Of a stretch of 50,590 nt of DNA, positions 2,327 through 50,590 are shown in pieces. The position numbers and the translations under genes were made by a program. Below the pieces are notes generated by a model, which worked only from the letters and a program-made list of their open reading frames with translations, was not told where the DNA came from and searched no databases. How positions within the stretch are numbered: the stretch's first letter is position 1; each line of letters begins with the position of its first letter. Origin of the DNA: a virus; IMG/VR virus record IMGVR_UViG_3300050821_002964, positions 1 to 50,590 of that record; one strand, 5' to 3'.

Positions 2327-2335
2327 CCCCTTCTC

Positions 2336-3339: not shown

Positions 3340-3569
3340 GCATCAAGACTTACGCCCTCCACTACCTCACTGGCCTCGGCACGTCCTGCTGGAACGCCGG
3401 CATCGCCGCGCTCTACGCCACCTTTGGGCAGGCAATCGGAGCTGGCATGGCCAGAGACATTCCGCTCCCCACCATGCATGAGATCGACGCTATTTTCGTC
3501 GGCGCTGTCGCGCTGGAAGCTCTTGCCTATTTCAAGCAGAACCCTTTGCCTATCCCCACAAAACTATGA
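3336..3569 (+). CDS. Small hydrophobic protein, holin candidate
   Basis: A 77-residue protein starting MSIKTYALHYLTGLGTSCWN at the ATG that overlaps the preceding stop. Two moderately hydrophobic stretches (about residues 18-38 and 51-65) are separated by a charged loop (ARDIPLPTMHEID). That would suit a small membrane protein. Its place before a lipoprotein, a lipase-like hydrolase and a TM-anchored coiled coil makes a holin or other lysis-cassette role plausible. Neither hydrophobic stretch is a perfect transmembrane helix, so this is inference from size and context. The stop overlaps the next start. Confidence 0.55.
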   Translation: MSIKTYALHYLTGLGTSCWNAGIAALYATFGQAIGAGMARDIPLPTMHEIDAIFVGAVALEALAYFKQNPLPIPTKL

Positions 3570-4009
3570 AAACCGTCCTCCGCTCCCTCTTCGTCGCGCT
3601 TCTGTTCTCAGGCTGCACGACTGCTCAGATTCAGGCCACCGCAGATGCCGATCTCGTCGCCAATGCCGCCGAGCTTGGCGCGGGCTACTCGATCCAGCAC
3701 AAGATCGCCACCGTTGCACAGCTTCAGCAGCTCGCCAATGACCTTCCTGGCGTGGCCTCTGGTGTGGCGTTGACGCCCTCGGACAACACGATCTTGGCCG
3801 GCATCATCGCCAACCTGTCGAACACGAAGGCTGACCTTACCGGGGTGGCTGCGCTTGACGCGCTCAACGGTGACATCGCCAAGGTCAATGCCGGTGGCAA
3901 CCCCACGCTGTTGACTGGCGCTGAGTGGAGTCAGCTCAAAGACGCTGCTGCCGGCATCAACGCCGCTATCGCCGTCGCGCAGGCCAACCCGTCGCTGGTG
4001 CCGCAGTAA
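3566..4009 (+). CDS. Small lipoprotein of the lysis cassette
   Basis: 147 residues with a lipoprotein signal peptide: MKTVLRSLFVALLFSGCTTA, with Cys17 as the predicted lipidated residue. The mature part is Ala-rich, helical in character and lacks further Cys. Outer spanins are lipoproteins in the same genomic place, but they are usually shorter and Pro-rich, so a spanin role is only a possibility. Overlaps of 4 bases with the gene before (ATGA) and 1 base with the gene after (TAATG) mark it as part of the translationally coupled run. Confidence 0.65.
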   Translation: MKTVLRSLFVALLFSGCTTAQIQATADADLVANAAELGAGYSIQHKIATVAQLQQLANDLPGVASGVALTPSDNTILAGIIANLSNTKADLTGVAALDALNGDIAKVNAGGNPTLLTGAEWSQLKDAAAGINAAIAVAQANPSLVPQ

Positions 4010-4632
4010 TGCCATCCTTCGACCCACGCGCCTACTTCCCGGCGCAGGAGGCGGCTTATGCCCTTCCTGCCTCGGGCACGGCGTCGGGACTGGTCGATAC
4101 CCTCTTTGGCAACGACATCGACGGGCCTATGCCCTACGGTGCATTGCTGGATCAGCATGACCTCGGATTAACTCTTGGCATAGCAGGGACGAGAGACACC
4201 GAGGAATGGGTGTTAGATTTCGACTTCTTCTCCATCGACACGCCGCTCGGGGCTATGGCGCGTGGCATCTGGGCTACCGCCGGCACTTGGCGCTGGCTAT
4301 CTGGTAAGCCCCTAAATTCCTACCCGATCAAGCGCATCGTGTGCCACAGCCGAGGAGGGCCGCTCGGCATCACATTATCGGCTATGCTTGGCGTCCCCGT
4401 AATCTGTTTCGCCTGCCCGAAGCTCGTCAGCCAGGCCGTGCTCGACAAGGCGCAGATCGCCGCGGCCTATTGGGTTGATGGCGACATTGTGCCGCTCGCC
4501 GCTCCGATGTATCCCGACATCCCGCAGACGATCCGGCTTTCGGCTCCTTCCTCAGTGCCATTGTTGAGCATCCGCGATCACCATATTTTCAGCACCTACG
4601 AGGCCGCGATCAACGAAGGGTTCGCCGCATGA
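4009..4632 (+). CDS. Class 3 lipase-like alpha/beta hydrolase
   Basis: 207 residues from the ATG overlapping the preceding TAA. The nucleophile elbow reads CHSRGG with Ser114, close to the GHSLGG of class 3 (fungal-type) lipases. It is followed by VDGDIVPL with Asp159, which matches the D-x-V-P acid motif of that family, and DHHIFSTY with His191 or His192. The elbow has Cys for the first Gly. There is no signal peptide, so export would depend on the holin-like protein. In the lysis cassette it could attack membrane or envelope lipid, in the way LysB does in mycobacteriophages, although the sequence is not LysB-like. No peptidoglycan hydrolase was recognised anywhere in the window. Confidence 0.7.
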   Translation: MPSFDPRAYFPAQEAAYALPASGTASGLVDTLFGNDIDGPMPYGALLDQHDLGLTLGIAGTRDTEEWVLDFDFFSIDTPLGAMARGIWATAGTWRWLSGKPLNSYPIKRIVCHSRGGPLGITLSAMLGVPVICFACPKLVSQAVLDKAQIAAAYWVDGDIVPLAAPMYPDIPQTIRLSAPSSVPLLSIRDHHIFSTYEAAINEGFAA

Positions 4633-4979
4633 AGCATTACGCCAATCCATACGACGACGAGTCTCCCTCCGTCCGTTTGAGCAAGCGCGGGGCTATTATC
4701 CCTTACGCCCTGATACCTGTTCTCCTGTTCGGCGGCAGTGCCTACCACTTTCTTGAAGTTGCCCCATCACAGTCAGACCATGATCGGCGTCTCAGTGTTT
4801 TGGAATCCAGTCAGATCGCGCAGGACTCCCAAATCCGAGCTGTCGAATTGGATAATGCCGCGATCAAAGCTCAGCTCGTGGCCATTCAGGATTCCCTTGT
4901 CCGGATCGAAGGGGACGAAAAGGCGGTCGAGAAATATATCTACGCCCAGCCCGACGATTTGCATCCCCGCAACCGCTGA
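4629..4979 (+). CDS. Membrane-anchored coiled-coil protein, spanin-like
   Basis: 116 residues. A polar N-terminus of about 20 residues is followed by one transmembrane segment (IIPYALIPVLLFGGSAYHFL, about 23-42). A long heptad-like helix then runs from about 50 to 105 (SVLESSQIAQDSQIRAVE onward). An N-terminal anchor plus a periplasmic coiled coil is the architecture of inner spanins and of XhlA-type haemolysin-like phage proteins. It overlaps the lipase stop (ATGA) and is the last rightward gene before transcription from the other side meets it. Confidence 0.55.
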   Translation: MKHYANPYDDESPSVRLSKRGAIIPYALIPVLLFGGSAYHFLEVAPSQSDHDRRLSVLESSQIAQDSQIRAVELDNAAIKAQLVAIQDSLVRIEGDEKAVEKYIYAQPDDLHPRNR

Positions 4980-4984
4980 CCCGC

Positions 4985-4999
4985 CGTCAACCCTTGACG
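4985..4999. terminator. Small palindrome at the convergent junction
   Basis: CGTCAA-CCC-TTGACG is a perfect 6-bp inverted repeat with a 3-base loop. It sits where the rightward unit ends (4979) and overlaps the stop of the last leftward gene (4987-4989). It has no T-run, so intrinsic termination would be weak. A regulatory site or chance is possible. Confidence 0.3.
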
Positions 5000-5151
5000 C
5001 GCACCCACGAGGACATGCGCCGGCCGTTGCGGCAGACAATGCGGCCCTTCACGATGCCACTGACGATGTGAACGCCGGGATGCACCCGAGCCGGGTATTT
5101 AGGAGTGCCGTTGACGCACTCGCGGACGAGATCGCCGATGCGGGTGTTCAT
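4987..5151 (-). CDS. Small basic protein, 54 aa
   Basis: A 54-residue reading frame starting MNTRIGDLVRECVNGTPKYP at an ATG that overlaps the preceding stop (ATGA), and ending WVRVKG. It is basic and compact with two Cys. The overlap and the absence of any other gene in the space support it. It is the last gene of the leftward unit and its stop is only 8 bases from the stop of the convergent rightward unit. Function unknown. Confidence 0.5.
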   Translation of the reverse strand: MNTRIGDLVRECVNGTPKYPARVHPGVHIVSGIVKGRIVCRNGRRMSSWVRVKG

Positions 5152-5441
5152 GGCGTCCCCTCCAACTCTTTGATCCGCTCCATCGCCTTGCGCAGCTGCT
5201 CCAGCAGGCGGTGGATCGTGGTGATGGGGCTCTCGCCTTGCTTGTAGAGGGCGCCGAGCGCCTTAATGAGCAGATTGCGTTCGGTGGAAAGGCCGAAGAC
5301 GTGGCGCTGCACTTGGGCAATCTCGTTTTGGTGAACCATTATCATGCCCTCGGGCGCGCGGTGGGACAGCATCCACAGCTCGCGTTCGGCCGGGGACATG
5401 GGTGGGAGCTTGGGAGCCCCGTTGGGTGGTGTGGTGTTCAT
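5148..5441 (-). CDS. Phage protein with helical C-terminus, 97 aa
   Basis: 97 residues, Pro-rich at the start (NTTPPNGAPKLPPMSPAERE) and then mostly helical, with a likely coiled coil near the end (LLEQLRKAMERIKELEG). It overlaps the helicase stop upstream by 4 bases and the small basic gene downstream by 4 bases. Nothing identifies a function. Its place directly behind the helicase suggests a partner or accessory factor of DNA metabolism. Confidence 0.6.
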   Translation of the reverse strand: MNTTPPNGAPKLPPMSPAERELWMLSHRAPEGMIMVHQNEIAQVQRHVFGLSTERNLLIKALGALYKQGESPITTIHRLLEQLRKAMERIKELEGTP

Positions 5442-6775
5442 TGGAAGGTGAGTCCGAGGTTGCGCCAGTTGGTGAGGAGCGCCATCATCGACGCTTGCCC
5501 TTCCCCGCGCTCGCGGAGGGTCTCGATGACCACGTCGTCCATCGTGCCGGTGCAGATGATGCGGTAGATGCGCGTCTCCTCTGTCTGCCCTTTACGCGCG
5601 ACCCTGGCGTTGAACTGGTCGTAGAGTTCGCGCGACCAGGTCGGGGAGAACCATATGACCGTGCGGCCCCCGGCTTGGAGATTGAGTCCGTGCCCCAGGG
5701 AGCGAGGGTCGGCGACGAGATGCGTGATGGCGCCACTGTTCCACGCGTCCTCGATGTCGCCTTTGAACTTGCCGGCATCGACGGCGCCGGAGACAGCGGC
5801 GACGACACGCTCTCGTTCATGTATGAAATTGGTGGCGATGATGGTTCGCTCCCCGACCATGCCACTGAGAAGACGGCGAAGGGCGAGGACTTTGCCAGCG
5901 TGGACCTGGCACACCCCGCGAGTCTCGGAGTACACTGTGCCGCCAGAAATTTGAAGAAGCTTGTTGACAAGTATCGCAGCTTGCGGAGCGACCACGTCTC
6001 CCCCCTCAAGTCGCACGAGCAGCTCACGCTCAAGCTCGCGGTAAACGTCGTGCGCGTCCTTGGGGAGCGCGATCTCGATGTCCTCGACGATGGTGTCCGG
6101 GATGTCGAGGTAGTCAGATGACCGTAGAGTGATCGCCAGGTCGTGGATTTTTTCATAGATATGTTTCTCAGCGTCGGGCTTGGGCTCCCAGTTGTACTCG
6201 TTGTAATCTGTAGGGGTGAAGTAGGTGCGCCTGAACTGGTCAAAAGAAGGCCCGAGCCGCTTGCCGTCGTCGAGGACGCGAACTTGGGCAAACAGTTCGA
6301 GTAGGGAATTCGGTCGTGGAGTGCCCGTAAGACCCCAGCGTCGGTGATCCCGGAATAGAGATCGGAGCGCTTTGATCCGCGTACTTTTCGGATTCTTCGC
6401 ACGCGTAAGCTCATCGAGGACGACGTGGGAGCAGAAGTCGAGGGACTGGAGATTTTGGAGTTGCTCATAGTTGGTCAGGTAAAGGTGCGCTCGGCCCGAG
6501 GGCAGCTGGCCTCGCAGCTGCTCCGTCTTCATCCAAGCGAATTGCCGCCACTTCGCAACCTCGTTCGGCCAGGTCAATCGCGCCACCCGGAGCGGAGCGA
6601 TGACCAGCGCCGCCTTGCAGTCACCGTCCTGGAACGCGCGCGTCAGGGCGTCGAGGGTCGCGGCTGTCTTGCCCAGACCCGGGGATACAAACAGGGCAGC
6701 ACTATCCCGACTCGAAAGGTGGTCGCGCATGACGGCCTGGTAGGGTTCAGACGAGAGACTTTGCAAGGCGCTCAT
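5438..6775 (-). CDS. SNF2-like superfamily 2 helicase/ATPase
   Basis: 445 residues holding both RecA-like domains of an SF2 ATPase. Motif I is SPGLGKT (about 31-37) and motif Ia is LVIAPLRVARLTW. Motif II is DELT (the DEAH-box position, about 119-122), motif III is LTGTPRPNS, and the C-terminal block QFNARVARKGQ matches motif VI of SNF2 proteins. The length fits the compact phage-type SNF2-like helicases, which lack extra chromatin domains. It probably remodels DNA or moves a replication or recombination complex. It overlaps the methyltransferase upstream by 29 bases and the small gene downstream by 4. Confidence 0.88.
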   Translation of the reverse strand: MSALQSLSSEPYQAVMRDHLSSRDSAALFVSPGLGKTAATLDALTRAFQDGDCKAALVIAPLRVARLTWPNEVAKWRQFAWMKTEQLRGQLPSGRAHLYLTNYEQLQNLQSLDFCSHVVLDELTRAKNPKSTRIKALRSLFRDHRRWGLTGTPRPNSLLELFAQVRVLDDGKRLGPSFDQFRRTYFTPTDYNEYNWEPKPDAEKHIYEKIHDLAITLRSSDYLDIPDTIVEDIEIALPKDAHDVYRELERELLVRLEGGDVVAPQAAILVNKLLQISGGTVYSETRGVCQVHAGKVLALRRLLSGMVGERTIIATNFIHERERVVAAVSGAVDAGKFKGDIEDAWNSGAITHLVADPRSLGHGLNLQAGGRTVIWFSPTWSRELYDQFNARVARKGQTEETRIYRIICTGTMDDVVIETLRERGEGQASMMALLTNWRNLGLTFQ

Positions 6776-7769
6776 AGATGAGGCTCCGATATGTGGGGTT
6801 CAACTCGATCAATATCGAGTCCCGGTTGTGATCCGCCGCGACCTCCCCTACTGTCCCGCTGCCAGCAAAGGGGTCGAGAACAACTCCACCAACGGGGCAA
6901 CCAGCGAGAATGCAGGGTTCGACAAGTTTTTTCGGGAAGGTGGCGAAGTGCGCGCCTTTGAACTGCGAGGTAGCGAGGAACCACACGTCCCTTTTGTTGC
7001 GCATGCCTGTACACTGCGACTGTTTCGTCAGGCTATCCCACTTGTCGCGGAACCCCTGGTGGACTCGCTCGTGCCCTCGATGCTTACCTTCATACTGATG
7101 CGCGTCTTTGGATCCTGCCGGGCGAATACCGGCGCGAAGACCCTCGGGGTGACTCTTAAGTTGGGCACTCGCGCGAGCTTTCCTTGCTGCTGTACCCGTA
7201 CCGTTCACATCCCATATAGCGGGCTCTTTAATCGCATCAGCATCATAGTAGTAGCGTGCGGATTTAGTGAAATGGAAAACGTACTCATGGCTGCTGGTGT
7301 AGCGATCTTTCATCGACCCTGGCATACAGTTACGCTTCGCCCAGATAATATCCTCGCGAAGATACCACCCAAAATCCTGGAGGGCGAATGCCACACGCCA
7401 AGGGATACCGAACAGCTGTTTTGCGGCTAGACCCCCGCGCTTCACCCCGCGTACTGAGAGGGAACCTTCATTAGTGAGTTGCTTTTGATGAGGACTGTTA
7501 CCTGAATGGCCCCCTTTTCCACTGCCAGCGTAACTATCTCCGAGATTGAGGTAGAGACTCCCATCTTTGCGGAGGACTCGATGACAGGCTGAAAACACCT
7601 GCTGGAGATTGTCAACATAGTCCTGAAAGGTGTTTTCTTGTCCGAGTTCACGCGGACCCGAGCCGTATTTCCGCAAACCCCAGTAAGGAGGGCTCGTGAC
7701 ACAGAGATGCACGCTCTCAGCAGCGAGCTTGTTCATCTCCTCGACGCAATCTCCAATAATTATACGCAT
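6747..7769 (-). CDS. DNA methyltransferase, N4-cytosine/N6-adenine type
   Basis: 340 residues. The catalytic motif IV TSPPYWGLR is near residue 29 and the SAM-binding motif I DPFAGSGTVGEVA is near residue 300. This order, with catalysis before SAM binding, is that of beta-class amino-methyltransferases. TSPPYW occurs in both N4-cytosine and N6-adenine enzymes, so the modified base is open. The variable middle (about 180-250) is probably the target-recognition region. It overlaps the helicase downstream by 29 bases and abuts the VRR-NUC gene upstream. With two other methyltransferases in the genome it probably protects phage DNA from host restriction. Confidence 0.9.
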   Translation of the reverse strand: MRIIIGDCVEEMNKLAAESVHLCVTSPPYWGLRKYGSGPRELGQENTFQDYVDNLQQVFSACHRVLRKDGSLYLNLGDSYAGSGKGGHSGNSPHQKQLTNEGSLSVRGVKRGGLAAKQLFGIPWRVAFALQDFGWYLREDIIWAKRNCMPGSMKDRYTSSHEYVFHFTKSARYYYDADAIKEPAIWDVNGTGTAARKARASAQLKSHPEGLRAGIRPAGSKDAHQYEGKHRGHERVHQGFRDKWDSLTKQSQCTGMRNKRDVWFLATSQFKGAHFATFPKKLVEPCILAGCPVGGVVLDPFAGSGTVGEVAADHNRDSILIELNPTYRSLIYERLAKSLV

Positions 7770-8074
7770 CAGATGAAAAAGTGCTCATCTATGATGAGTC
7801 TGGCCTGCTCGATCGAGTCGCACCAGTTGGCCGCGACCGCGCCGCCGACCTTGTTGATCCGGGCGATCTCGCGCAGCTGCAAGGCCGTCGGCTGCTTGCC
7901 GCGCCGCTTGACCTCCAGGTAGAGAGCCTTCCCTTGCCCGAGGATCGTGCGATCCGGCACGCCGCTGTTGGCCGGCGAGACGAACTTGTAGCACAAGAGC
8001 CCGCGAGCCTTGCAGTGGAAGACGATCTTGCGCTCGATCTCCTTCTCTAGAGGACTTTCGCTGCTCGCAGGCAT
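7769..8074 (-). CDS. VRR-NUC domain nuclease
   Basis: 101 residues matching a stand-alone VRR-NUC (PD-(D/E)xK) nuclease. An N-terminal Glu-containing helix (SPLEKEIERKIVFHC) is followed by SGVPDRTIL, LYLEVKRRGKQPTALQ and a C-terminal helix after VGGAVA. GVPD and the E-V-K pair are the metal-binding and catalytic positions of the family. Phage VRR-NUC proteins are often encoded next to helicases and are thought to cut branched DNA. It overlaps its upstream neighbour by 28 bases and touches the methyltransferase start. Confidence 0.88.
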   Translation of the reverse strand: MPASSESPLEKEIERKIVFHCKARGLLCYKFVSPANSGVPDRTILGQGKALYLEVKRRGKQPTALQLREIARINKVGGAVAANWCDSIEQARLIIDEHFFI

Positions 8075-8328
8075 AGTGCGATCCTCCGTTTCATTTCGGC
8101 TAGTCGCGTCGATGCGATGCGCGCGGTCAGACGTTGCAAGATGTCCTTGCGCTTCTTGCCGAGCAGCTCCAGCACCACGAGGCGCTGGAGGTCGCTCTCA
8201 TTGATGCCTAGCAGCATGATCTCGTGCAGGCTCATCCAGCCGGAGAGGTGCGGCGAGAGCCTCTCCACGTCCTTGTCGGAGATGACGACGGGGTTCGGGA
8301 AGACCTGGGCGTAATCGGGTATGCGCAT
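8047..8328 (-). CDS. Phage protein of unknown function, 93 aa
   Basis: 93 residues starting MRIPDYAQVFPNPVVISDKD, soluble and helical with a basic C-terminal half (GKKRKDILQRLTARIA, MKRRIALCLRAAKVL). The MSLHEIMLLGINESDLQRLVV stretch resembles a small helical DNA-associated fold. It lies one base after the C5 methyltransferase stop and runs 28 bases into the VRR-NUC gene. No family is recognised. A role with its nuclease and methyltransferase neighbours is likely from context only. Confidence 0.6.
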   Translation of the reverse strand: MRIPDYAQVFPNPVVISDKDVERLSPHLSGWMSLHEIMLLGINESDLQRLVVLELLGKKRKDILQRLTARIASTRLAEMKRRIALCLRAAKVL

Positions 8329-8329
8329 A

Positions 8330-9433
8330 TTAGATCAGAGAACTGTAGAGATGAGCTTCCTCCGTTGCTTCGATAAACTCCGCCGCGAGAGGAGGCACGA
8401 TGCCATTGCCGTAGCCCCGCAGGAGCCCCATACGACCCGAAATCCCATGAGCCAGCGGGAATGATCTGGGTTCAAAGCGGCGCGTTTTCCCGTCTGTGCA
8501 GTGGACGACTCTGAAGTCCGACCAGCATCCGCTGGTAACGCCCCTCCAGCTTGATTCGGTCCACCGTTGCTCCCGTCCGTCGCCCTCGGAGTGCTCCATC
8601 CCACCAGTTGGACTTGCTGGCTCAACGGCACTCCTTTGTCTTGTGGCCTCGCTGGAAGGCTGCCCCGTGTTCCGTCTTGTGCGGTCGGGCTGCACCAACC
8701 CACCAGTCTCACTTCCCGATCCAAATGCTTGTTCCCGCCGCCCTTCGTCTCCGTCGTCCGGCCGCCCGAGCAATCCGACGCCTTTGGAGTGCTCCATCCC
8801 ACCAATGCCACCGTCCGCCTGCTGCTGTCTGTGTTCCCCCCCGGATTGTAGTTTTCTGTCCCTGGGCTTCCGGCCATTGGCGAGGGCCACCCAGTAAAGC
8901 CGCTGCCTGATATGGGGAGGGCCGGCGTTGACGGGGATACGATCACCATCAATTTCGATCCATCCGGCCACTTCCGGGCTTGCGCCCGCAGCGCACAGAT
9001 CGGCCGCAGCGCAGGCGTAATCCGACACTTCCAGGTCAGCGAATACTCCATCGAGCCATGCGAGCCCATCCTTGCTCGCAACCTGCTCTCCAAACACGAC
9101 TGGAGGCTTATACTGCGCGATGAGGCGGTGGAACTCGGGCCAGAGATGCCGTTTGTCGGCGACCCCTTTGCGCTGACCGGCGCTGCTGAATGGCTGGCAA
9201 GGACAAGACCCCGTCCAGACGGGTCGGTCTTCGGGCCATCCTGCAAGGCGAAGCGCCTCGCTCCATCCGCCGATGCCGGCGAAGAAGTGGCATTGAGTCC
9301 ATCGGGCAAGCTCTTCGGGTCGCACGTCGACGATGCTGCGCTGATCGACGAATCCGAAGGGGATATGCCCCCGGTGGATGAGTTCTCTGAGCCAGGCGGC
9401 GGCTGAGGGGCCGTTCTCATTGTAGTAGTTCAC
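8330..9433 (-). CDS. C5-cytosine DNA methyltransferase
   Basis: The start is GTG 9433, which overlaps the polymerase stop as GTGA, giving 367 residues (MNYYNENGPSAAAWL). A longer frame upstream exists but lies inside the polymerase gene. Motif I is HFFAGIGGWSEALRLAG (about 49-65) and motif IV is SCPCQPFS with catalytic Cys79. Motif VI is GEQVASKD, where EQV replaces ENV, and motif VIII is RQRLYWVA. The segment after motif VIII is Gly/Arg-rich, with repeats of GGMEHS (two copies) in place of a classic target-recognition domain. It ends with GNGIVPPLAAEFI, matching motif X. It would methylate cytosine in phage DNA. Most of the gene is overlapped by a second open frame. Confidence 0.9.
   Translation of the reverse strand: MNYYNENGPSAAAWLRELIHRGHIPFGFVDQRSIVDVRPEELARWTQCHFFAGIGGWSEALRLAGWPEDRPVWTGSCPCQPFSSAGQRKGVADKRHLWPEFHRLIAQYKPPVVFGEQVASKDGLAWLDGVFADLEVSDYACAAADLCAAGASPEVAGWIEIDGDRIPVNAGPPHIRQRLYWVALANGRKPRDRKLQSGGEHRQQQADGGIGGMEHSKGVGLLGRPDDGDEGRREQAFGSGSETGGLVQPDRTRRNTGQPSSEATRQRSAVEPASPTGGMEHSEGDGREQRWTESSWRGVTSGCWSDFRVVHCTDGKTRRFEPRSFPLAHGISGRMGLLRGYGNGIVPPLAAEFIEATEEAHLYSSLI
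8335..9420 (-). CDS. Long overlapping frame inside the C5 methyltransferase gene
   Basis: A 361-residue open frame on the same strand, in another frame, covers nearly the whole methyltransferase gene. It has its own recognisable texture: LESRLRARMGSHGSMEYSLTWK, CALRAQARK, then four spaced copies of VGW(S/C)(T/S)P-x-A or GWPSP (about residues 205-310), and HSRWLMGF near the end. I know such LTWK, GWPTP and HSRWLMG segments from proteins annotated next to or inside phage C5 methyltransferases. The repeats are the same DNA that encodes GGMEHS in the methyltransferase frame. Whether it is translated is unknown. The ATG at 9420 lies 13 bases inside the methyltransferase. Confidence 0.45.
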   Translation of the reverse strand: MRTAPQPPPGSENSSTGGISPSDSSISAASSTCDPKSLPDGLNATSSPASADGARRFALQDGPKTDPSGRGLVLASHSAAPVSAKGSPTNGISGPSSTASSRSISLQSCLESRLRARMGSHGSMEYSLTWKCRITPALRPICALRAQARKWPDGSKLMVIVSPSTPALPISGSGFTGWPSPMAGSPGTENYNPGGNTDSSRRTVALVGWSTPKASDCSGGRTTETKGGGNKHLDREVRLVGWCSPTAQDGTRGSLPARPQDKGVPLSQQVQLVGWSTPRATDGSNGGPNQAGGALPADAGRTSESSTAQTGKRAALNPDHSRWLMGFRVVWGSCGATAMASCLLSRRSLSKQRRKLISTVL

Positions 9434-11415
9434 TTGCTGTAAAACGGTTTGACCGACGACTCGACTTTGATTGGCAGCCCCTTCGCCCAATCTGGCAACG
9501 TGGCCATCGCTGCGGAGAACTCCTCCGGCGTATGTCCGTCCGTGTGTGAGGCGAGAGCTTGATCGTGGACCAAGGCGAACGGAGGCATCCCGCGGCACTC
9601 GGCTTCGAGGGCACCGCAAGCCATAATGTCGGCCGCAACTCCTTGAGTGCAATTTTCCGCGAGCTTGCCACCATAAAGCTTCACCCGCCCCCACGAAACC
9701 GTCATCGGGAGCTGCCCCCAATAAGTGATCTGGTCGCGCTCCTCGCCCGGCAGCACCTCGATCGCAGGTTTGGGATAGGCCAGTGACCGGCCTGATGGCA
9801 GCTTGAACAGTAGGAACGGTAGATTCGCGATCTTGCGAATCACGAACGGCCCAGCCTCTTTCCCCGGTGCGAGAATCGCAGCGCGGGCTTGGTTGTTCAA
9901 ATAGTACCAGTAGCGCACCACTTTGTCACAGAGCGTGCGGTATGCCTCGATACCGCGCTCGCAAAGATCAAGTGGGAGGTAGAGCTGGTATTGCTCTCGG
10001 CAAGATGCTTGGAACTTCGAGGCTCCCATTTGAAAACCAGCTCCGAGAAATACTCGCTTACCAACCTCGCGCTGATCCTTGTTCACGCGCTCGGGTGGGA
10101 TGAGGTAGACGTGAGAGGCCATGAACTTGTAGAGGTCCTCGCCGCGCTGGAACTTCTCCAGCACATCCGTCTGACCCGCCAACCAACAGATGATACGCGC
10201 CTCCACGGCGTTGTAGTCACCGTCGAGCAAGGGGCCGCTGACAAAATGCCGGATGCTGCTGGCGATCACCTCAAGGGGGTTGCCATAGACCTCCTCCAGC
10301 CCCTCAGCTGTGCCGCCGCGCGCGATGTAGCGAAATGCCGGCTCGGTGCGCGAGCGCATCTCTGGCGTAGCTTTTTTCGCGTTCTGCAATTGCGGGCCAC
10401 CGCTCGACCAGCGCCCGGTTCCCGCGCCGTAGTACTTGAACACCCCGCGCATCCGGCCGTCGGGGCACGCCCAGTCGAGCATGGCGGCGATCTTCTTGAC
10501 CGCGGCGTAGCTGACCTGCTGGTAGAGCGTGAGGATGCGGCGGAGCCGCATGAGCCTGTCGCAGTCCTGCGACTGACCCATACGATAGTGAGCTTCGGCG
10601 TCAACTAGAGTCTGGGCGATAGCGTTCTCCACTGTCTCGGCCTGCATGTCGGGCAGTCCGACCAGTTCGCGCACCTTTTCCCGCTGCGTCGGGTTGAGCC
10701 CGGTCAAGGCGACGAACTCCGTCGCGACCTTGGTCTGCACCTCGTCGATGATGCGCTGTGCGTTGCGCAGCGCCGGCACGTTGACGGGGATGCCTAGTTG
10801 GTTCATGCGCAGGTCAAACTGGAACGTCTCCAACGGCAGACCTTGCAGCTCGAAAGCCGCGAGAGCCTTGTGAATCGCCTTCTCAGTGCGCACGTCTTGT
10901 CGGCAGTATTCTCCAAAGGCGAGCCACTCCTCGGGGAAGTCGCGAGGGGCATTGTATGTACCATCGGGCTTCGGCAGGGAGAAGAACTTGATGAGCTGCT
11001 TGCCGCGCGGGTCTTTCTGCTGCGCCAGCCCGAGAGCCTCAGCGCACTTCTCCAGGGACGACGGCAGACCGGCCTTGCGCGCCATCGCCGCCGTGCAGCG
11101 CCATTGGTGCATCTGTATCGGGTGGATGCCGATCTGCTGCTCGAACTTGGTGCCCCAGGTGATCGCTTGCTCGAACGGCGCATTATGTGCATATACATAG
11201 TCAGCATTGCGCAGGAGCAGGGTCGCTTCGTCGTTCTCACCGAGCATGTCCGCAGTTCTGAACTTAGGGTTCACCCACAGGAAGACCTCGTCGCTGTCAT
11301 GCACGCTGATGCCGGCCATGAAGACCTCCGTCGAGGGATCGCAGGCGTAGCGGTGGGCGCCGACGGATGTTAAGTCCGCGCGGCTCCTCGTTTCATAGTC
11401 GAGGTGAACGATCAT
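9430..11415 (-). CDS. Family A DNA polymerase with 3'-5' exonuclease domain
   Basis: 661 residues from ATG 11415, which overlaps the preceding stop (ATGA). The N-terminus is a DnaQ-like exonuclease with HLDYETRSRADL (Asp6, Glu8) and YAHNAPFEQ. The polymerase domain shows motif A LLDGDYNAVEARIICWLAG, motif B KRVFLGAGFQMGASKFQ and motif C LVHDQ, in which Gln takes the place of the usual Glu after His-Asp. It is shorter than bacterial Pol I and lacks the 5' nuclease domain, as usual for phage replicative enzymes. The gene sits in the middle of the replication unit, between the C5 methyltransferase and the ssDNA-binding protein genes. Confidence 0.93.
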   Translation of the reverse strand: MIVHLDYETRSRADLTSVGAHRYACDPSTEVFMAGISVHDSDEVFLWVNPKFRTADMLGENDEATLLLRNADYVYAHNAPFEQAITWGTKFEQQIGIHPIQMHQWRCTAAMARKAGLPSSLEKCAEALGLAQQKDPRGKQLIKFFSLPKPDGTYNAPRDFPEEWLAFGEYCRQDVRTEKAIHKALAAFELQGLPLETFQFDLRMNQLGIPVNVPALRNAQRIIDEVQTKVATEFVALTGLNPTQREKVRELVGLPDMQAETVENAIAQTLVDAEAHYRMGQSQDCDRLMRLRRILTLYQQVSYAAVKKIAAMLDWACPDGRMRGVFKYYGAGTGRWSSGGPQLQNAKKATPEMRSRTEPAFRYIARGGTAEGLEEVYGNPLEVIASSIRHFVSGPLLDGDYNAVEARIICWLAGQTDVLEKFQRGEDLYKFMASHVYLIPPERVNKDQREVGKRVFLGAGFQMGASKFQASCREQYQLYLPLDLCERGIEAYRTLCDKVVRYWYYLNNQARAAILAPGKEAGPFVIRKIANLPFLLFKLPSGRSLAYPKPAIEVLPGEERDQITYWGQLPMTVSWGRVKLYGGKLAENCTQGVAADIMACGALEAECRGMPPFALVHDQALASHTDGHTPEEFSAAMATLPDWAKGLPIKVESSVKPFYSK

Positions 11416-27766: not shown

Positions 27767-28032
27767 ACCGCTGCATCCCCGAAGACTGGACGGAGGTTCC
27801 CAAGTACCTCTTCGACTTCATAGCTGCATCCATCGACAACTACCGTGATGGGTGGGTTGGGGTCGTCTTCTACATCGAGCGGGGTTCCGGAAAGAAGTTC
27901 GGAGCAATCGACGATTCGGGTAGGTACTATCTCAACCTCCCGAAGCCTGAGCCTAGGTGCATCGGTGAGATGGGAGATCAACAGTTTAAGGGGTTCGTGG
28001 CCAAACTAGCGAACGAGTATTTTGGGGTATGA
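27763..28032 (+). CDS. Phage protein of unknown function, 89 aa
   Basis: 89 residues, MNRCIPEDWTEVPKYLFDFI onward, acidic, with aromatic residues in a beta-rich core (GWVGVVFYIERGSGKKFGAI). It overlaps the start of the large terminase by 4 bases (ATGA), so it is coupled to packaging genes. Function unknown. Confidence 0.5.
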   Translation: MNRCIPEDWTEVPKYLFDFIAASIDNYRDGWVGVVFYIERGSGKKFGAIDDSGRYYLNLPKPEPRCIGEMGDQQFKGFVAKLANEYFGV

Positions 28033-29765
28033 TCGACACCTCACAGTTCATCTCCTTCTGGGACTTTTTCAGCCAATGCTTCGTGCCGCTGATGAACCTG
28101 GAGCTGCCGTTGAAGCCCTTGCACCGGCACGTCTGCGAGGTGCTGCAAAAGGCGGTGCTCGGCGACTTGAACAAGGCGTTCATCTGTGTGAATATCCCCC
28201 CGCGCGTGGGTAAAACCAAGCTTATGGAAGCGTTGCAATGCTGGACGCTCGCGTACTTCCCTGATGCGCAGATCATCACCGTCAGCTACTCAAACGAGCT
28301 GGCCACCACTAGCGTCCGCTACGTCCAGCAGGCGATCGATTCTCCATGGTACAAAGAGTTATTCCCCACCCGCCTCGGCAAGCTCCGGCAATCTGACCAA
28401 TTCTCTACGACGGCCGGCGGCAAGGTCTACGGCGACGGCGTTGGCGGGTCGCTTACCGGCCTCGGCGCCGGGCTCAAGCGGCAGGCCGGCGGCATGATAA
28501 TCCTCGACGACCCGGCCAAGCCGGACGAGGCGCTCTCGCGCGTGGTGGGCGAGCAACTGCGGTTCTGGTTTGAGAATACGCTCAAGTCCCGGCGCAACTC
28601 ATCGCGGTGGACCCCCATCATCATCTGCGCGCAGCGGCTCGCCACGGACGATCTCCCCGGCTACATTCAGGAGACCTATCCAGACGACTGCTTCACGATC
28701 AAATTCCCCGCGATGGTGGATGGGGAGAGCACCATACCAGAGACGGTGGACACGCGCTCGCTTCTCCAGACCGAGGCAGCCAACCCCTACGCCTTCGCCT
28801 GCCAGTACCAGCAGGAGCCCATCGTCCTCGGGGGCAACCTCATCAAACTTGCCAACTTCAGATACTATGATCCTGACTCGCCGCCGCGCTTCGAGATGAA
28901 GATAATGACGGCCGACACAGCGTTGAAGGGGAAGCAGCACAACGACTATGCGGTGATCCAGTGCTGGGGTCGGTCGCTCAAGCGCGCGTTCCTGATCGAC
29001 CAGATTCGCGGCAAGTGGGAGCCGTCGCTGCTCTTGATGAACGCGCGCAAGTTCTACGAGAAGCACCACAAGTCGGCCTCGCCGATGCACTACATCGCGA
29101 TCGAGGAGGCCGGCGCCGGCTACAACCTGATGCTGGAGATGCGCAAGAAAGGCATCCCGGCGAAGGGCATCATCCGGCTCACCGACAAGGTCGAGCGCAT
29201 CAAGTCGATCCTCGCCTACCAGGAGACGGGCATGGTCTATCTCCCGCGGGGGATGCCCTGGTTGCCGGCGTTCGAGGTCGAGCTGGCCTCGTTCCGCGCG
29301 GATGGGAAGAGCACGCTCGATGACCAGTGCCTTATCGCAGGCACGTTGATAAGCTGCTGGCGGGGGGCGGTGCCCATCGAGGAGGTCAAAGTGGGGGACA
29401 AAGTAGCAACTAGAGAAGGATGGTTTCCAGTGGTAATCTCTGGCAAGACGGGGGAGAGCAGCGAGCTTTACCAGTATCAGGATGATGATCTGAATAGGGT
29501 GATTGGTACCGGGAACCACCCAGTTTGGCATGAGGGTAGGTTCCAGCGGATGCAGGATATTAGGGATGGGAACTACTGCCTTGCGGTTCAGATGGAGCCT
29601 CGGACGCGCCCAGTCTACAACCTGAAAGTGGATGGGCCGCCAGAGTATTTCGCTAACGGCGTCCTCGTTCATAACTGCGATGCGTTCGCTGATGGTGTCG
29701 GACTGACACTGGGGAAAGCCACGAGCATTCTCAACGTGCTCGGGAAGCGGAAGCAAGCTGCATAA
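28029..29765 (+). CDS. terL: Large terminase subunit interrupted by a mini-intein
   Basis: 578 residues, of which 462 are terminase. Walker A is NIPPRVGKT with Lys62 and Walker B is GMIILDDP with Asp160/161. The RNase H-like nuclease has MTADTALKG (Asp296), then YIAIEEAGAG, then the last acidic motif in STLDDQ-CDAFADGV. Between DDQ and CDAF lies a 116-residue intein (residues 434-549). After splicing the motif would read LDDQCDAFADG, like the DDQ-x-DA of other terminases. The unspliced protein has its last nuclease motif broken. The gene lies between small coupled genes and a radical SAM gene. Confidence 0.92.
   Translation: MIDTSQFISFWDFFSQCFVPLMNLELPLKPLHRHVCEVLQKAVLGDLNKAFICVNIPPRVGKTKLMEALQCWTLAYFPDAQIITVSYSNELATTSVRYVQQAIDSPWYKELFPTRLGKLRQSDQFSTTAGGKVYGDGVGGSLTGLGAGLKRQAGGMIILDDPAKPDEALSRVVGEQLRFWFENTLKSRRNSSRWTPIIICAQRLATDDLPGYIQETYPDDCFTIKFPAMVDGESTIPETVDTRSLLQTEAANPYAFACQYQQEPIVLGGNLIKLANFRYYDPDSPPRFEMKIMTADTALKGKQHNDYAVIQCWGRSLKRAFLIDQIRGKWEPSLLLMNARKFYEKHHKSASPMHYIAIEEAGAGYNLMLEMRKKGIPAKGIIRLTDKVERIKSILAYQETGMVYLPRGMPWLPAFEVELASFRADGKSTLDDQCLIAGTLISCWRGAVPIEEVKVGDKVATREGWFPVVISGKTGESSELYQYQDDDLNRVIGTGNHPVWHEGRFQRMQDIRDGNYCLAVQMEPRTRPVYNLKVDGPPEYFANGVLVHNCDAFADGVGLTLGKATSILNVLGKRKQAA
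29328..29675 (+). other. Mini-intein within the large terminase, 116 aa
   Basis: It starts with Cys434 in CLIAGTLISCWRGAVPIEEV (block A; VGDKVATREG follows). Block B is IGTGNHPVWHEG with the conserved His. The end is VYNLKVDGPPEYFANGVLVHN, with penultimate His and final Asn549. The next residue, Cys550, is the +1 nucleophile. All splicing residues are present, so protein splicing is expected. There is no homing endonuclease domain, and 116 residues is near the smallest size known to me. Its codons look less GC-rich than the terminase around it. Confidence 0.88.
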
Positions 29766-29769
29766 GTTT

Positions 29770-30603
29770 ATGGGGTGCCTAAATTCCACAGGTCAGTTTT
29801 CGCACTGGTTTGGTAATATACACCTCAGTGGGCCGTGTAATCGTGCCTGCTATTTCTGCATCGGTCAGCACATGATGGCGCTAGACCCACTGAACAATTT
29901 GAAACTTTGGCCACTGGACAACTTAGAGGCTTTTGTGGCTGAGTGCCTACAGCATCGAGTGGGTGAAGTGAATCTCACCGGCAGCAATACCGACCCCCTC
30001 CTCTACAAGCACCATGCGGAACTCTGCGGATTTCTCAGGAGTCGGTTGCCTGGATGCAAGCTGGGCATCCGAACGAATGGGGTAGCGGCGGTGAGGCATC
30101 CAGAGACTTGGGGTCTTTATGATAAGGCGAGTATCTCAATTACTTCACTAGACCGGGGAATCTATGGAAAGACGATGGGTTGTGGCGAACCCCCAGACGT
30201 GGGCGCCATTTTCAGGATTAAGCCTGGGATGCCAATCAAGATTAATATGGTGCTCTGCCCAGAAACAGTTGGCGGAGACATCTACAACACTCTAGCTCGG
30301 TTGGCCGACCTCGGGGTTAAAACCGTCAACCTCCGTGAACCCTATGGTCAGCCGCATTTGGGATGCCCGCTGACGAGCCCCTGCGGAGAAAGATTAGGTA
30401 TGCCGAGATTTAAGTTCCTCGGCATGGACGTAACCTATTGGGATGTCCATTACGTTGAGGTGGAGAGCGTCAATCTGTATGCCAATGGGGTAGTCAGCAA
30501 AACCTACCCAATCACCAAAGGGCATGCCCCTTCAGGGGAAGTTCACGGTCAAGAGCATTGGGTGAAGAGCGGGCGTATCCGACCACAGTGGGTGAGGGCT
30601 TGA
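29770..30603 (+). CDS. Radical SAM enzyme
   Basis: 277 residues. GPCNRACYFCIG has Cys23, Cys27 and Cys30 in the C-x3-C-x2-C pattern that binds the 4Fe-4S cluster of radical SAM proteins. LTGSNTDPLL fits the GGE-like strand region, and KLGIRTNGV and ASISITSLD look like later strands of the partial TIM barrel. A C-terminal part with several Cys (GCPLTSPCGERLG) might bind a second cluster or substrate. Substrate unknown. It stands between terminase and portal, where other phages have no enzyme, and looks less GC-rich than its neighbours. About 140 bases without a gene follow. Confidence 0.82.
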   Translation: MGCLNSTGQFSHWFGNIHLSGPCNRACYFCIGQHMMALDPLNNLKLWPLDNLEAFVAECLQHRVGEVNLTGSNTDPLLYKHHAELCGFLRSRLPGCKLGIRTNGVAAVRHPETWGLYDKASISITSLDRGIYGKTMGCGEPPDVGAIFRIKPGMPIKINMVLCPETVGGDIYNTLARLADLGVKTVNLREPYGQPHLGCPLTSPCGERLGMPRFKFLGMDVTYWDVHYVEVESVNLYANGVVSKTYPITKGHAPSGEVHGQEHWVKSGRIRPQWVRA

Positions 30604-45965: not shown

Positions 45966-47396
45966 ATGCCCTCGAACACCATCGACGTAAACGGTCTGAC
46001 GATCCAGACAATCACCGACGTGCTCAACGAGCTGGAGAATGGCGCGGACGGCTATCTCGGTTGGTACCAGATTTATGGCGCCGACGTGAACCTCCAGCCC
46101 AACTCACCAGACGGGCAGGCGCTCAACATCTTCGCACAGGCGAAAGTGGACACCCTCGGGTTCGGCCGGCTGGTGTACACTAGTTTTGACCCTCAGCAGG
46201 CGTTCGGGGTGGCCCTTGACCGCGTCTGCGCCATCAATGGTGTGATTCGCAATGGGGGTACCTATACGCAGCAGGTGATCGCGGTCACGGTCAGCCAGGC
46301 TCTCACTCTACCAGGCCTCGATCTGAATCCAAGCGGGGGCGCTTTCGTGGTGCAGGACTCCACCGGCACGCAGTATCAGCTTCTCACGACCTACGCGTTC
46401 ACTGGCGCAGGTACAGTGTCCCTCACGTTCCAGGCCATCCTGATCGGGGCCATCACTTCCCCGGTGAATGGGATCACTGTCATCTCGACACCCCAGCTTG
46501 GGGTGGTGTCAGTCAACAACCCCACTGCGGCGGTAGTGGTCGGCACGAATCAGGAGACGGACGCGGCGTTGCGCATAAGGCGTGCCAACTCCGTCGAGTT
46601 GCCCAGTCTCGGGTATCTCCAAGGTCTCATCGGAGCTTTGCAAGACGTGCCTGGAGTTACCCAGGCAGAGGTGTATGAGAACGTCACCAACACCACGGAT
46701 GGACGGGGTATCCCCGCACACTCGATCTGGTGCATCGTGGCGGGCTCGGGCGCTCCGGCCGCCATCGGGAACGCGATATACGTCAAACGTAATGCCGGCT
46801 GCGGTCAGACCAGCACTGGCTACGGGGCAACAGCGACGGCCGCGATCTCGGGTGGAGCGATCACCGGGTTCACTGTGGGGCTTGGCGGTGCAGGCTACGT
46901 CTTGCCCCCCCAGGTGGTCATCACTGATCCCCACGGCACAGGGGCATCGGGCACAGCGGTTCTCACCTCTGGCGTCGTCACTAGCATCACTCTAGGAGCC
47001 GGCGGCTCTGGTTATACTGCTCCCGTAGTCGCCCTGGTCGGCCAAACTCAAGTGGTGCCGGTAACGCAGGTGGACGGCTCGATTTTCGACGTGCTCTATG
47101 ACACGCCGGTCGCGCTCCCGCTCTTCTTTACCGCAGCGATCACCGCGATCACCGGCACGGTCGATCTCACTTATATCCAAGCGCAGATACTCGCGCAGTT
47201 CGGTACCACCTATCTGATTGGGCAGACTGCCGATGCCACAGCCATCGTCGCGTTCATCAAATCCATCGCCCCGAACGCCTCCGTCAGTGGCGAGGGTGTG
47301 TCCCTTACGAGCAGCGGTTATACGCCCACAGTCGCGTCGACCGGGGCGAACTACCAGTTCTATTTTCCCAGTGGGTCGAACATCATCCTGACATGA
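45966..47396 (+). CDS. Baseplate J-like protein with inserted Gly-rich domain
   Basis: 476 residues. The N-terminal part (GYLGWYQIYGADVNLQPNSP with DGQALNIFAQAKVDTLGFGR), the middle GTNQETDAALRIRRANSVEL with GYLQGLIGALQDVPGVTQAE and the end VFTAAITAITG-like strands match the gpJ family. An extra domain of two Gly-rich repeats (GGAGYVLPPQVVITDPHG, GGSGYTAPVVALV; about residues 280-360) lies between the halves of the J fold. A like domain is in the DUF4054 connector gene. It forms the wedge of the baseplate. Confidence 0.85.
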   Translation: MPSNTIDVNGLTIQTITDVLNELENGADGYLGWYQIYGADVNLQPNSPDGQALNIFAQAKVDTLGFGRLVYTSFDPQQAFGVALDRVCAINGVIRNGGTYTQQVIAVTVSQALTLPGLDLNPSGGAFVVQDSTGTQYQLLTTYAFTGAGTVSLTFQAILIGAITSPVNGITVISTPQLGVVSVNNPTAAVVVGTNQETDAALRIRRANSVELPSLGYLQGLIGALQDVPGVTQAEVYENVTNTTDGRGIPAHSIWCIVAGSGAPAAIGNAIYVKRNAGCGQTSTGYGATATAAISGGAITGFTVGLGGAGYVLPPQVVITDPHGTGASGTAVLTSGVVTSITLGAGGSGYTAPVVALVGQTQVVPVTQVDGSIFDVLYDTPVALPLFFTAAITAITGTVDLTYIQAQILAQFGTTYLIGQTADATAIVAFIKSIAPNASVSGEGVSLTSSGYTPTVASTGANYQFYFPSGSNIILT

Positions 47397-48085
47397 TGAC
47401 GCAGCTTCAGCAGATCGAGACAGCGACCGATTACTATGAGACGCTGCTCATCCTCCAGTACCGAGGGCTGCCCAAGGCATCGGCGACCATCGGGCTTCTG
47501 ACTAAGCAGGCCACCGCTGACATGCTGTTCGGCCAGTTCGAGTCGGCTTTCGACCTCGATCTCGCGGTCGGGCCGCAGCTCGACATCCTCGGGGAATATA
47601 TTGGAGTCAGCAGGTATCAGCAAGACATCCTCGACATCCCATACTTCGGGTTCAAACTCTACGCGGGCGGCGGCAATCCGAACGGTTTCACCGACTATTA
47701 CGCGGGAGTCAATCTGAGCGGAGTGTTCTATCGCTATCAGAATTTTGGAGTCCCGAACACCGCACTCACTGACGCCGCTTACCAGTTCCTTCTCAAGCTG
47801 AAGATCATCCTCAATCACTCGGACGGGACGCTCTCGAACATTATGACGTTCCTCAATATGTTCTTGCCCGGTCAGGTGCAGTTGATAGACAATCAAAACA
47901 TGACGTTGACCTACAACGTGGCTTCCACAGTCCCGATCAGCGCCGGCATACTGGCTAACTTCCTGCCAAAACCAATGGGGGTCAGCATCACTGTCAACAT
48001 CCTGAGTTTCGGCACCCGTATCACGGAAGATGGGCATACTCGGGTCACTGCGGACGGGTCCACCCGCGTCATCATCACTTCTTAA
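47393..48085 (+). CDS. DUF2612 tail protein (gpI-like)
   Basis: 230 residues from ATG 47393 (ATGA overlap; ATG 47396 is an alternative). LGVSRYQQ-like block ILGEYIGVSRYQQDI, YQFLLKLKIILNHSDGTLSN with IMTFLNMFLPGQVQLIDNQN match DUF2612, proteins that take the place of gpI and join J to the tail fibre. An extra strand-rich end (THTRVTADGSTRV-like repeats of G-x-TRV) follows. Confidence 0.8.
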   Translation: MMTQLQQIETATDYYETLLILQYRGLPKASATIGLLTKQATADMLFGQFESAFDLDLAVGPQLDILGEYIGVSRYQQDILDIPYFGFKLYAGGGNPNGFTDYYAGVNLSGVFYRYQNFGVPNTALTDAAYQFLLKLKIILNHSDGTLSNIMTFLNMFLPGQVQLIDNQNMTLTYNVASTVPISAGILANFLPKPMGVSITVNILSFGTRITEDGHTRVTADGSTRVIITS

Positions 48086-48089
48086 TACC

Positions 48090-48866
48090 ATGCCCGCAAT
48101 ACCCAGAGCATATCAGAAAATTTTCGCCGGTAACTACTCGTCGGCCCCGACCGGGAGCCTCCCAGTATTCGGGAGCCTCGCAGCCTCGGCAATCGCGTGG
48201 GCTGACGACATACCGACCATCACGAGTCTGCCGGCGTGGATGGGCGGCTGGGCTGGCGCGGTCGTCGGCACCGAGTCCCCGGCCTTGGAGGACTTCAATG
48301 CCCTTGGGTACGTCGTCACCTCTCAACTCGCCTATCTCTTTCAAGCGGGCATCCCCGAGTACGATCCGAGCACGACGTACTACAACCTCATCAGCTTTTG
48401 CACTCGCGCTGGAGTGCTTTACCAGAGTATTCAAGACAACAATACGGGGAACGCGCCTCCCGATTCGAGTTATTGGCGGGTGGCTTTCAGCAATGTGTTC
48501 GACCCCTTGGGTGCGGCGGCGGCTGCTCAAGCGGCCGCGCAGGCGTTCGCCACCTCCGCGGTCAATGCCGCAGTAGTGGCGCTACAACCCCAGCTCGCGA
48601 AAGCTTGGATGACATGGAACTCCAATGGGTTCATCTACTCCAGTTACGGTTGCTCCCTAGTGGTCAATGGGACTGGCGATTACAGCATCAATTTCAACAC
48701 CCCTTTCTCGTTGGTACCTTCCGTCTCGGTAACGTGCCAAGGGCAGGCGTCTATAGGGGGAACCTTGAATCAGAACACCTGCGAAGTTATCACCGGACAA
48801 GTGGCTAGTGGGAGCTTTGTTCGAGCCAATTTCGGATATAACAGCTTCCAAGCTTTCGGGACATGA
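48090..48866 (+). CDS. Tail fibre protein with carbohydrate-binding-like module
   Basis: 258 residues from ATG 48090. AIPRAYQKIFAGNYSSAPTG is a baseplate-attachment type start. EYDPSTTYYNLISFCTRAGV with YQSIQDNNTGNAPPDSSYWR is a small module like the chitin-binding-type repeats that many phage fibres carry. An Ala-rich helix (AAAAAQAAAQAFATSAVNA) and a beta C-terminus follow. It is the first fibre gene after the baseplate and probably part of the adsorption apparatus. Confidence 0.72.
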   Translation: MPAIPRAYQKIFAGNYSSAPTGSLPVFGSLAASAIAWADDIPTITSLPAWMGGWAGAVVGTESPALEDFNALGYVVTSQLAYLFQAGIPEYDPSTTYYNLISFCTRAGVLYQSIQDNNTGNAPPDSSYWRVAFSNVFDPLGAAAAAQAAAQAFATSAVNAAVVALQPQLAKAWMTWNSNGFIYSSYGCSLVVNGTGDYSINFNTPFSLVPSVSVTCQGQASIGGTLNQNTCEVITGQVASGSFVRANFGYNSFQAFGT

Positions 48867-49549: not shown

Positions 49550-49981
49550 ATGGCCTACCCAACCCTCATCCCACTTCAAGGCGACCCGACCACCTGGACG
49601 CCACCGGCAGCCGGCTACATCAACGTCGGCGTCAACCTCTCCGGCCAGATCGTGACCCAGCAGCCGAACGGAGTTCTGGCCACGTCCTACCCCTCCTCCG
49701 GCATGGTGGTGGTCACCGCCGGCAGCTATTCAGTCCTCGCGACTGACCGCGATCTCCTTCTCAACTTCGCCGGTACGGCTACACTGACCCTCGGGACTCC
49801 CACCAATGGCCGAGAGTTGTGGCTGCGCACGATCCAAGCCGATGCGGTGGTCTCGGCAACCGCGAACGTGATCCCCCTCGCCGGGGGCGCGGCCGGCACC
49901 GCCATCCTCGCAGCCACCGCGGGCAAGTGGTGCCGCCTTGTCGGGGACGGATCAAACTGGCAGATCACCGCAGCCAACTAA
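49550..49981 (+). CDS. Fibre-associated protein, 143 aa
   Basis: 143 residues without a signal peptide, MAYPTLIPLQGDPTTWTPPA onward. It is beta-rich, with a C-terminal half (NFAGTATLTLGTPTNGRELW to VGDGSNWQIT) like the small jelly-roll tips of some fibre proteins. It lies in the fibre run, 7 bases before the exported small protein gene. Function inferred from context. Confidence 0.55.
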   Translation: MAYPTLIPLQGDPTTWTPPAAGYINVGVNLSGQIVTQQPNGVLATSYPSSGMVVVTAGSYSVLATDRDLLLNFAGTATLTLGTPTNGRELWLRTIQADAVVSATANVIPLAGGAAGTAILAATAGKWCRLVGDGSNWQITAAN

Positions 49982-49988
49982 TCTCACC

Positions 49989-50381
49989 ATGAAATACCTG
50001 CTCTCCCTCCTCCTGTTGCTTCTACCGCTAACGACCTTCGCCAGCGTTCAAGGAGCCTCTACCTATTCTAACGCCTCGCTCACTGCAACCCTCGTGGTGG
50101 CGTCAGCCTCACCTGTCGCCCTCTGCAATTACAACGTGTCGAACACGAACACTGGGACAATTTATGTCCAGTTTTTTGATGCTGCGACCACCGTGGGCAT
50201 CACACTTGGGGTCACAGCTCCGAAGTTCTGGATAGCGGTGCCTTCAGGCAACGGGGTGACAGATGGCCCTTACACTCCCCCAGTGGCGTTCCAGAACGGG
50301 ATAGTCATCGCTGTCACGACAACCCCGACGGGCAGCACCGCGCCCAGCAGCTCTGTCCCAGTCACTCTGACCACCAACTGA
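49989..50381 (+). CDS. Exported small beta protein of the fibre module
   Basis: 130 residues from ATG 49989. MKYLLSLLLLLLPLTTFASV is a clear Sec signal peptide with cleavage after TFA. The mature part is a single beta domain (ALCNYNVSNTNTGTIYVQFF, VTAPKFWIAVPSGNGVTDGP) ending TTPTGSTAPSSSVPVTLTTN. That style of domain is common in phage virion proteins, normally without a signal peptide. Its end is repeated exactly at the window start. It is followed at one base by the next fibre-like gene. Confidence 0.65.
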   Translation: MKYLLSLLLLLLPLTTFASVQGASTYSNASLTATLVVASASPVALCNYNVSNTNTGTIYVQFFDAATTVGITLGVTAPKFWIAVPSGNGVTDGPYTPPVAFQNGIVIAVTTTPTGSTAPSSSVPVTLTTN

Positions 50382-50590
50382 CATGAAACGCTTCATCATC
50401 TTTCTCGCACTCACGCCTTCACTTCTGTTCGGTGGAGCGACGATCGGCAGCACCGGATCGGGCGGTGGATTCACGGCTGGCGGCGACCTGACCGGCACGT
50501 CCACCAGCCAGACCGTGGCAAAGATCAACGGCAACGTGGTGACCGGGCCGGCGACTCAAGCGCAGCAGATAGCAGGCACGTCGAATACCG
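50294..50590. repeat. Right copy of the imperfect terminal repeat
   Basis: The counterpart of 1-297, with offset 50293. The first 97 or so bases match exactly. Then about 13 differences follow, clustered at 98-110 and 270-290 of the repeat. If the contig is one circle, the genome length would be about 50,293 bases. Confidence 0.85.
50383..50590 (+). CDS. 5' end of exported fibre-like protein (partial)
   Basis: The 69 codons to the window edge encode MKRFIIFLALTPSLLFGGAT and continue like the gene at 90-1037. Only residues 4-7 differ (FIIF for ILVL). Everything after the signal peptide is identical at the protein level. Either a strain variant of the same gene, or a second copy. Confidence 0.75.
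   Translation, partial: MKRFIIFLALTPSLLFGGATIGSTGSGGGFTAGGDLTGTSTSQTVAKINGNVVTGPATQAQQIAGTSNT

Follow-up and report, generated by a model that had tools for sequence, protein, structure and literature searches.

Predicted Sec signal peptides as an optional N-terminal module on otherwise ordinary tail-fibre proteins of an environmental tailed-phage group

In a group of environmental tailed phages, fibre proteins that otherwise look ordinary may or may not carry a predicted Sec signal peptide, an N-terminal module set precisely in front of them, and the comparison of tail loci shown here indicates that the signal-bearing fibres replace ordinary ones in the tail operon. Tailed-phage virions are, in the textbook view, built wholly in the cytoplasm. 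The arrangement was found in a single virus record of 50,590 bases (hereafter the window), and is as unusual as an earlier note on this DNA had held: fibre-type proteins with export signals are encoded within a tail and lysis operon. We give even chances to the reading that these proteins are tail-fibre parts of the phage itself, made as Sec preproteins, exported, cleaved and joined to virions at lysis. Export and cleavage of the signal-bearing fibres are strongly implied by their sequences; the docking of the exported fibres onto virions is what we infer from them. The wider proposal, that a large environmental group of tailed phages has receptor-binding fibres that are Sec-secreted, matured in the periplasm and docked at or after lysis, with infectivity completed extracellularly, is held a shade more tentatively, at slightly less than even chances.

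The window carries a small myovirus gene set recognized by family models (DUF3383, DUF2612, Phage_portal_3, DUF2213 and a PF09950 major capsid protein). By capsid protein, its nearest named relative is Bdellovibrio phage phi1422, whose major capsid and portal proteins are 33 and 36% identical, respectively, to those of the window. In bacterial assemblies, the most similar portal proteins are those of Opitutia/Opitutae bins (64, 52 and 52% identity) and of one Rhodospirillales bin (56%), and the binning of these portal-bearing assemblies makes a Verrucomicrobiota host likely. The large terminase gene (28029–29765) contains a Hint-type (intein-like) stretch directly after the Terminase_6C domain, from about residue 434 and ending near VHN-C, and a radical-SAM-like gene (29770–30603) lies between terminase and portal. 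Positions 1–297 and 50294–50590 form a direct repeat of 297 bases with 96% identity. This overlap joins the map, so that the genes under study follow one another on a circular or permuted map, as had been claimed earlier. At 50383 a second allele of gene 90 starts, and its four substitutions in the signal peptide keep the hydrophobicity (RILVL/RFIIF); since the record ends are not identical, the assembly probably combines two strains.

Named by their start positions, the genes of the tail end follow the order 47393, 48090, 48863, 49550, 49989, 90, 1037, 2336 and 2677, and then a lysis-type cassette of 3336, 3566, 4009 and 4629; those given below with both ends are all on the plus strand. Neighbouring genes abut or have overlaps of a few bases in an operon-like run behind the baseplate genes, the place in the late tail operon that phage tail fibres occupy, and within the tail–lysis run no promoter or terminator exceeded chance expectation. 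The first four genes encode a DUF2612 tail/baseplate protein (47393–48085; PF11041, E = 2.2e-31), a conserved protein annotated as a tail fibre by family match and alignment, which was the anchor of our survey (48090–48866; phrog_20878, E = 1.6e-12), a conserved tail protein that is 50% identical in loci L218/L219 (48863–49543) and a fibre base piece (49550–49981). No signal peptide was found in these four neighbouring tail genes.

Five genes had been credited with Sec or lipoprotein signals in the earlier note. Our in-house rule places Sec signals on four of them (49989–50381, 90–1037, 1037–2326 and 2677–3339), which encode fibre or fibre-associated proteins, and the fifth, 3566–4009, has a lipobox; the two small genes said to interrupt the series are the signal-less 2336–2680 and 3336–3569. 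The product of 49989–50381 (130 aa) has a Sec-type N-terminus, mkyllsllllllplttfa-SVQG (here and below a hyphen marks the predicted cleavage), and a small beta-type domain with seven relatives in other phages, signal-bearing in four (L309, L310, L313 and L314) and signal-less in three (L308, L311 and L312). Loci L309–L314 belong to other, seemingly unrelated phages in which small beta or fibre-like proteins bear signals, and the theme may extend well beyond the group. Gene 90–1037 encodes a Sec-type signal (mkrilvllaltpsllfgga-TIGS), a glycine/serine/threonine-rich shaft and a C-terminal fibre tip at residues ∼200–315 (phrog_18251, E = 1.7e-13). The signal-less product of 2336–2680 (MANYRISQIP...) is an N-domain of the kind present on ordinary phage fibres; its gene overlaps 2677–3339, which encodes a fibre-like protein of 220 aa with a Sec-type N-terminus (mkkllllllipllaha-QAGV) and a G/S/T/A/N content of 58%. 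In the lysis cassette, 3336–3569 encodes a small hydrophobic protein, 36% identical to an L168/L265 gene product, with a putative holin role. The adjacent 3566–4009 encodes a lipoprotein (LFSG-C) and not a fibre, and only its signal region matches Cor, weakly (E = 0.17). An esterase/lipase-like protein (4009–4632; phrog_21992, E = 6.2e-9) and a membrane/coil protein (start at 4629) follow.

The mature parts had also been likened to fibre shafts and tips. This description fits 90–1037, is plausible for 2677–3339 and the 49989 domain, and does not suit the lipobox protein beside the holin-like gene (3566–4009) or the Big-like and trypsin-like protein (1037–2326). The C-terminal domain of 90–1037 has matches at 252 places in viral contigs (80 phage loci were examined) and is homologous to domains in the fibres of other tailed phages. 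AlphaFold, given 45 homologs, confidently models the tip as a beta domain (pLDDT above 90). Matches to viral models are strong, and the closest of these all belong to phages or viruses; matches in the PDB are weak and include phage tailspike and fibre ends. Among the readable starts in these 80 loci outside the group, the only signal-bearing tip-domain proteins are the near-identical podovirus-like pair L003/L005, and the others have ordinary starts, for example MANTKISALTSSTTPLAGTEVLPIVQ. A signal call on the L020 tip-domain protein was rejected as a false call of the rule.

Gene 1037–2326 encodes a signal peptide, a Big-like domain and a trypsin-like domain. Its N-terminus, mkfiallllpltaca-QGVM, is predicted to be cut as a type I signal or alternatively as a lipoprotein at LTA-C. 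The predicted triad of His230, Asp267 and Ser368 (GDSG) comprises the His/Asp/Ser set of trypsin-like serine proteases, and matching motifs were identified by eye in homologs L295 and L296; the trypsin fold has no Pfam match, and AlphaFold, run on the single sequence without homologs, gave a pLDDT of 31. No relatives were found in viral contigs, phages or plasmids; homologs were found in Verrucomicrobiota class genomes. One without a signal lies in L303, a Verrucomicrobiota prophage-like tail/lysis locus, beside tail-fibre and GDSL-lipase genes: L303:9409–13996 (minus strand) encodes in tandem a signal-less tail fibre, the GDSL lipase and the Big-like trypsin-like protein, and then a lipoprotein and lysis-type genes. 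In L304 the homolog bears a signal and adjoins an Mtd_N (major tropism determinant) fibre; L304:8278–11257 (minus strand), on a 190-kb Verrucomicrobiota-class contig, encodes this fibre, the trypsin-like protein and a peptidoglycan-binding/endolysin-like protein consecutively, all three with signal peptides.

Signal calls were made with the in-house rule, which considers charge, hydrophobic core and cleavage site, and not with SignalP; gene starts were also chosen by rule. The rule missed K-poor signals (L204 and L246, added by hand) and made false calls (L020, L166 3370, L216 4234 and L280) that were corrected by hand. We surveyed 107 tail loci, comprising relatives of the portal and of the tail-protein anchor, with clusters at 60% identity as the unit and fibre-like genes counted from 200 aa. 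Signals were called in 45 of 160 fibre-like clusters versus 12 of 386 other clusters (Fisher p = 2e-16; 107 related tail loci), and at only 4 of 805 ATG codons inside those fibre genes, so the pattern is not due to chance. The earlier note had proposed to look for the cluster in related phages as a check, and the pattern of signal-bearing fibre-like genes proves to be general among them. Dozens of freshwater relatives carry signal-tagged fibre proteins, the longest of 1,441 aa, and in place of the cytoplasmic N-terminus of phage tail fibres these have predicted Sec signals. In the cultured phage phi1422, gp68 (614 aa; MKFMIAFIIALFSVTMATAQ) and gp75 have signal peptides and lie beside tail-fibre genes; the same pairing of an N-domain protein with a signal-bearing fibre occurs in the Bdellovibrio prophage L209. 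Family models have little to say about the signal-bearing fibres in general; the L168 protein has matches to many PHROG families of tail-fibre and virion proteins. One tail locus from a Dependentiae bin (L204, reverse complement 699–9876) has four signal-bearing fibre-like genes, one of them encoding 30 cysteines.

The modular nature of the signal is clearest among orthologs. A 551-aa fibre without a signal in L284 is 64% identical over 571 columns to a signal-bearing 584-aa fibre at the same locus in L168, and the alignment begins at the mature end of the L168 protein; no signal was found upstream of the L284 and L202 fibres in any of the three frames. Neither of the two fibres is tagged in L202, one of two in L284 and both in L168, L170 and L285. 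These orthologs and differing tag counts indicate that the module was added to, or lost from, fibres already in place. In 11 signal-bearing proteins the predicted cleavage falls 2–4 residues before an I-x-x-L-P core (three sites were set by hand), and residue 2 of nearly all signal-less homologs lies at the same distance from this core. Split and fused gene forms also occur. In L219 a single signal-less fibre of 1,540 aa spans both a 49550-type start and the 90–1037 tip: its start is 46% identical to an L167 homolog that is in turn 47% identical to 49550–49981, and its end corresponds to the tip (52% over 130). In the window these ends are separate genes, a base without a signal and a tip with one. 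A signal-less small protein precedes a signal-bearing fibre in L165 and L166, as 2336 precedes 2677 in the window, and in L168, L170 and L175 the N-domain is fused behind one signal at the start of the signal-bearing fibre. Fusion patterns of this sort usually mean that the parts work together.

Signal-bearing and ordinary fibres seldom occur side by side. By script, large fibres are only signal-bearing in 27 loci, of both kinds in two and only ordinary in 27; the hand-corrected counts are about 26, 1 and about 28, with shared ancestry ignored. Four loci were reclassified by eye (L206, L276, L280 and L284), and loci end at contig ends. Added decoys should co-occur with ordinary fibres, yet these do not, which argues for substitution and not addition. 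The earlier note had suggested an extra set of decoy or receptor-masking proteins, or host-derived adhesins. Neither idea is supported: orthologous fibres with and without a signal occupy the same place in relatives, ordinary fibres are rarely kept alongside signal-bearing large ones, and pieces that are separate in the window form one fibre in L219. Taken together, the orthologs, the near-exclusive fibre types and the L219 fibre suggest that these are the receptor-binding fibres of the phage on an unusual route.

The chief alternative, possible though on balance unlikely, is that the exported fibres act outside the virion, displayed on or shed from the infected cell, where they would mask receptors, keep out other phages, cleave surface polysaccharide or alter adhesion. 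The signal peptides appear real, and enzymatic domains are present (trypsin-like in 1037–2326 and beta-helix/pectate-lyase-like in L170). Both a bacterial precedent, the Bdellovibrio fibres displayed on the cell surface (PMC10769870), and a phage precedent, the signal-bearing outer-membrane protein Lom encoded among the fibre genes of lambda (PMC12309495), would accord with display. However, the signal-bearing fibres substitute for ordinary ones rather than adding to them, the signal is lost or gained among orthologs at the same locus, and the mature N-domains match those of ordinary fibres.

On the route to the virion that we favour, the host Sec machinery would export the fibre preproteins late in infection, and signal peptidase would trim them to an N-terminus equal to that of the signal-less homologs. 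The trimmed fibres would trimerize, either in the periplasm or at the envelope, and at lysis would attach to virions already bearing cytoplasmic base pieces (49550–49981 and 2336–2680 in the window). In vitro, T4 fibres and P22 tailspikes can be joined to particles, so late attachment is possible. Against this route, every locus retains the signal-less, fibre-annotated protein of 48090–48866, which could itself bind the receptor. Fibres with and without signal peptides do not differ in cysteine content (p = 0.23), and hence there is no visible need for an oxidizing compartment.

We consider it improbable that the hydrophobic N-terminus stays uncleaved and serves to anchor the fibre in the virion or to tether assembly to the inner membrane. 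Single-pass anchors have the same n- and h-regions, but a small residue at −1, mostly Ala, lies just ahead of the conserved N-domain, and Q is the commonest +1 residue (13 cases). More doubtful still are adhesins of lysogenic conversion, carried for the host as the bacterial fibres are; the L304 element, with its signal-bearing Mtd_N fibre, protease and peptidoglycan-binding protein on a 190-kb Verrucomicrobiota contig, would fit them, but the genes lie inside a late tail/lysis operon, and phi1422 gp68 lacks a homolog in 65 other Bdellovibrio-family genomes and has one only in a prophage. An artefact of start choice or assembly is very improbable: despite the in-house signal rule, the rule-chosen starts and record ends that represent two alleles, the signals recur in many independent loci, the internal-ATG control is low and the starts in cultured phi1422 are annotated.

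If the fibres are indeed exported by Sec, one would have to reconsider the order of assembly, when receptors are bound, re-adsorption to debris, superinfection and the production of recombinant fibres, and fibre genes in metagenomes could be misread as secreted host adhesins, or vice versa. With orthologous pairs that differ in the signal (L284 versus L168/L285), and with phi1422 in culture, the question can be tested directly. In the full-text open-access literature no account of signal-bearing tail fibres as a class was found, and this search is weak evidence for their novelty; the phi1422 genome paper mentions no signal peptides and contains no virion proteomics (PMC3391216).

Compared with known systems, the window-type fibres share N-domains, shafts, tips, gene position and PHROG families with ordinary phage fibres that have the 90–1037 tip or a KIS.LP N-domain; the latter start with Met in the cytoplasm without a signal, whereas the former bear predicted signals. 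The phiPLPE-like dwarf myoviruses, including phi1422, have the same gene order as the window and signal-bearing fibres of their own. The nearest precedents are the Bdellovibrio mosaic adhesive trimers (MAT) and lambda Lom. MATs are encoded by bacterial predation genes and displayed on the cell surface (PMC10769870). In architecture alone the proteins described here match them, having a signal peptide, a beta-rich domain, a fibre shaft and a variable phage-like tip; they differ in that a search of 66 Bdellovibrio-family genomes with phi1422 gp68 alone found a homolog only in a prophage, and thus no homology of gp68 to the bacterial MAT proteins. Lom, a beta-barrel outer-membrane protein expressed in lysogeny (PMC12309495), is likewise signal-bearing and encoded among tail-fibre genes, but it is a barrel and not a fibre.
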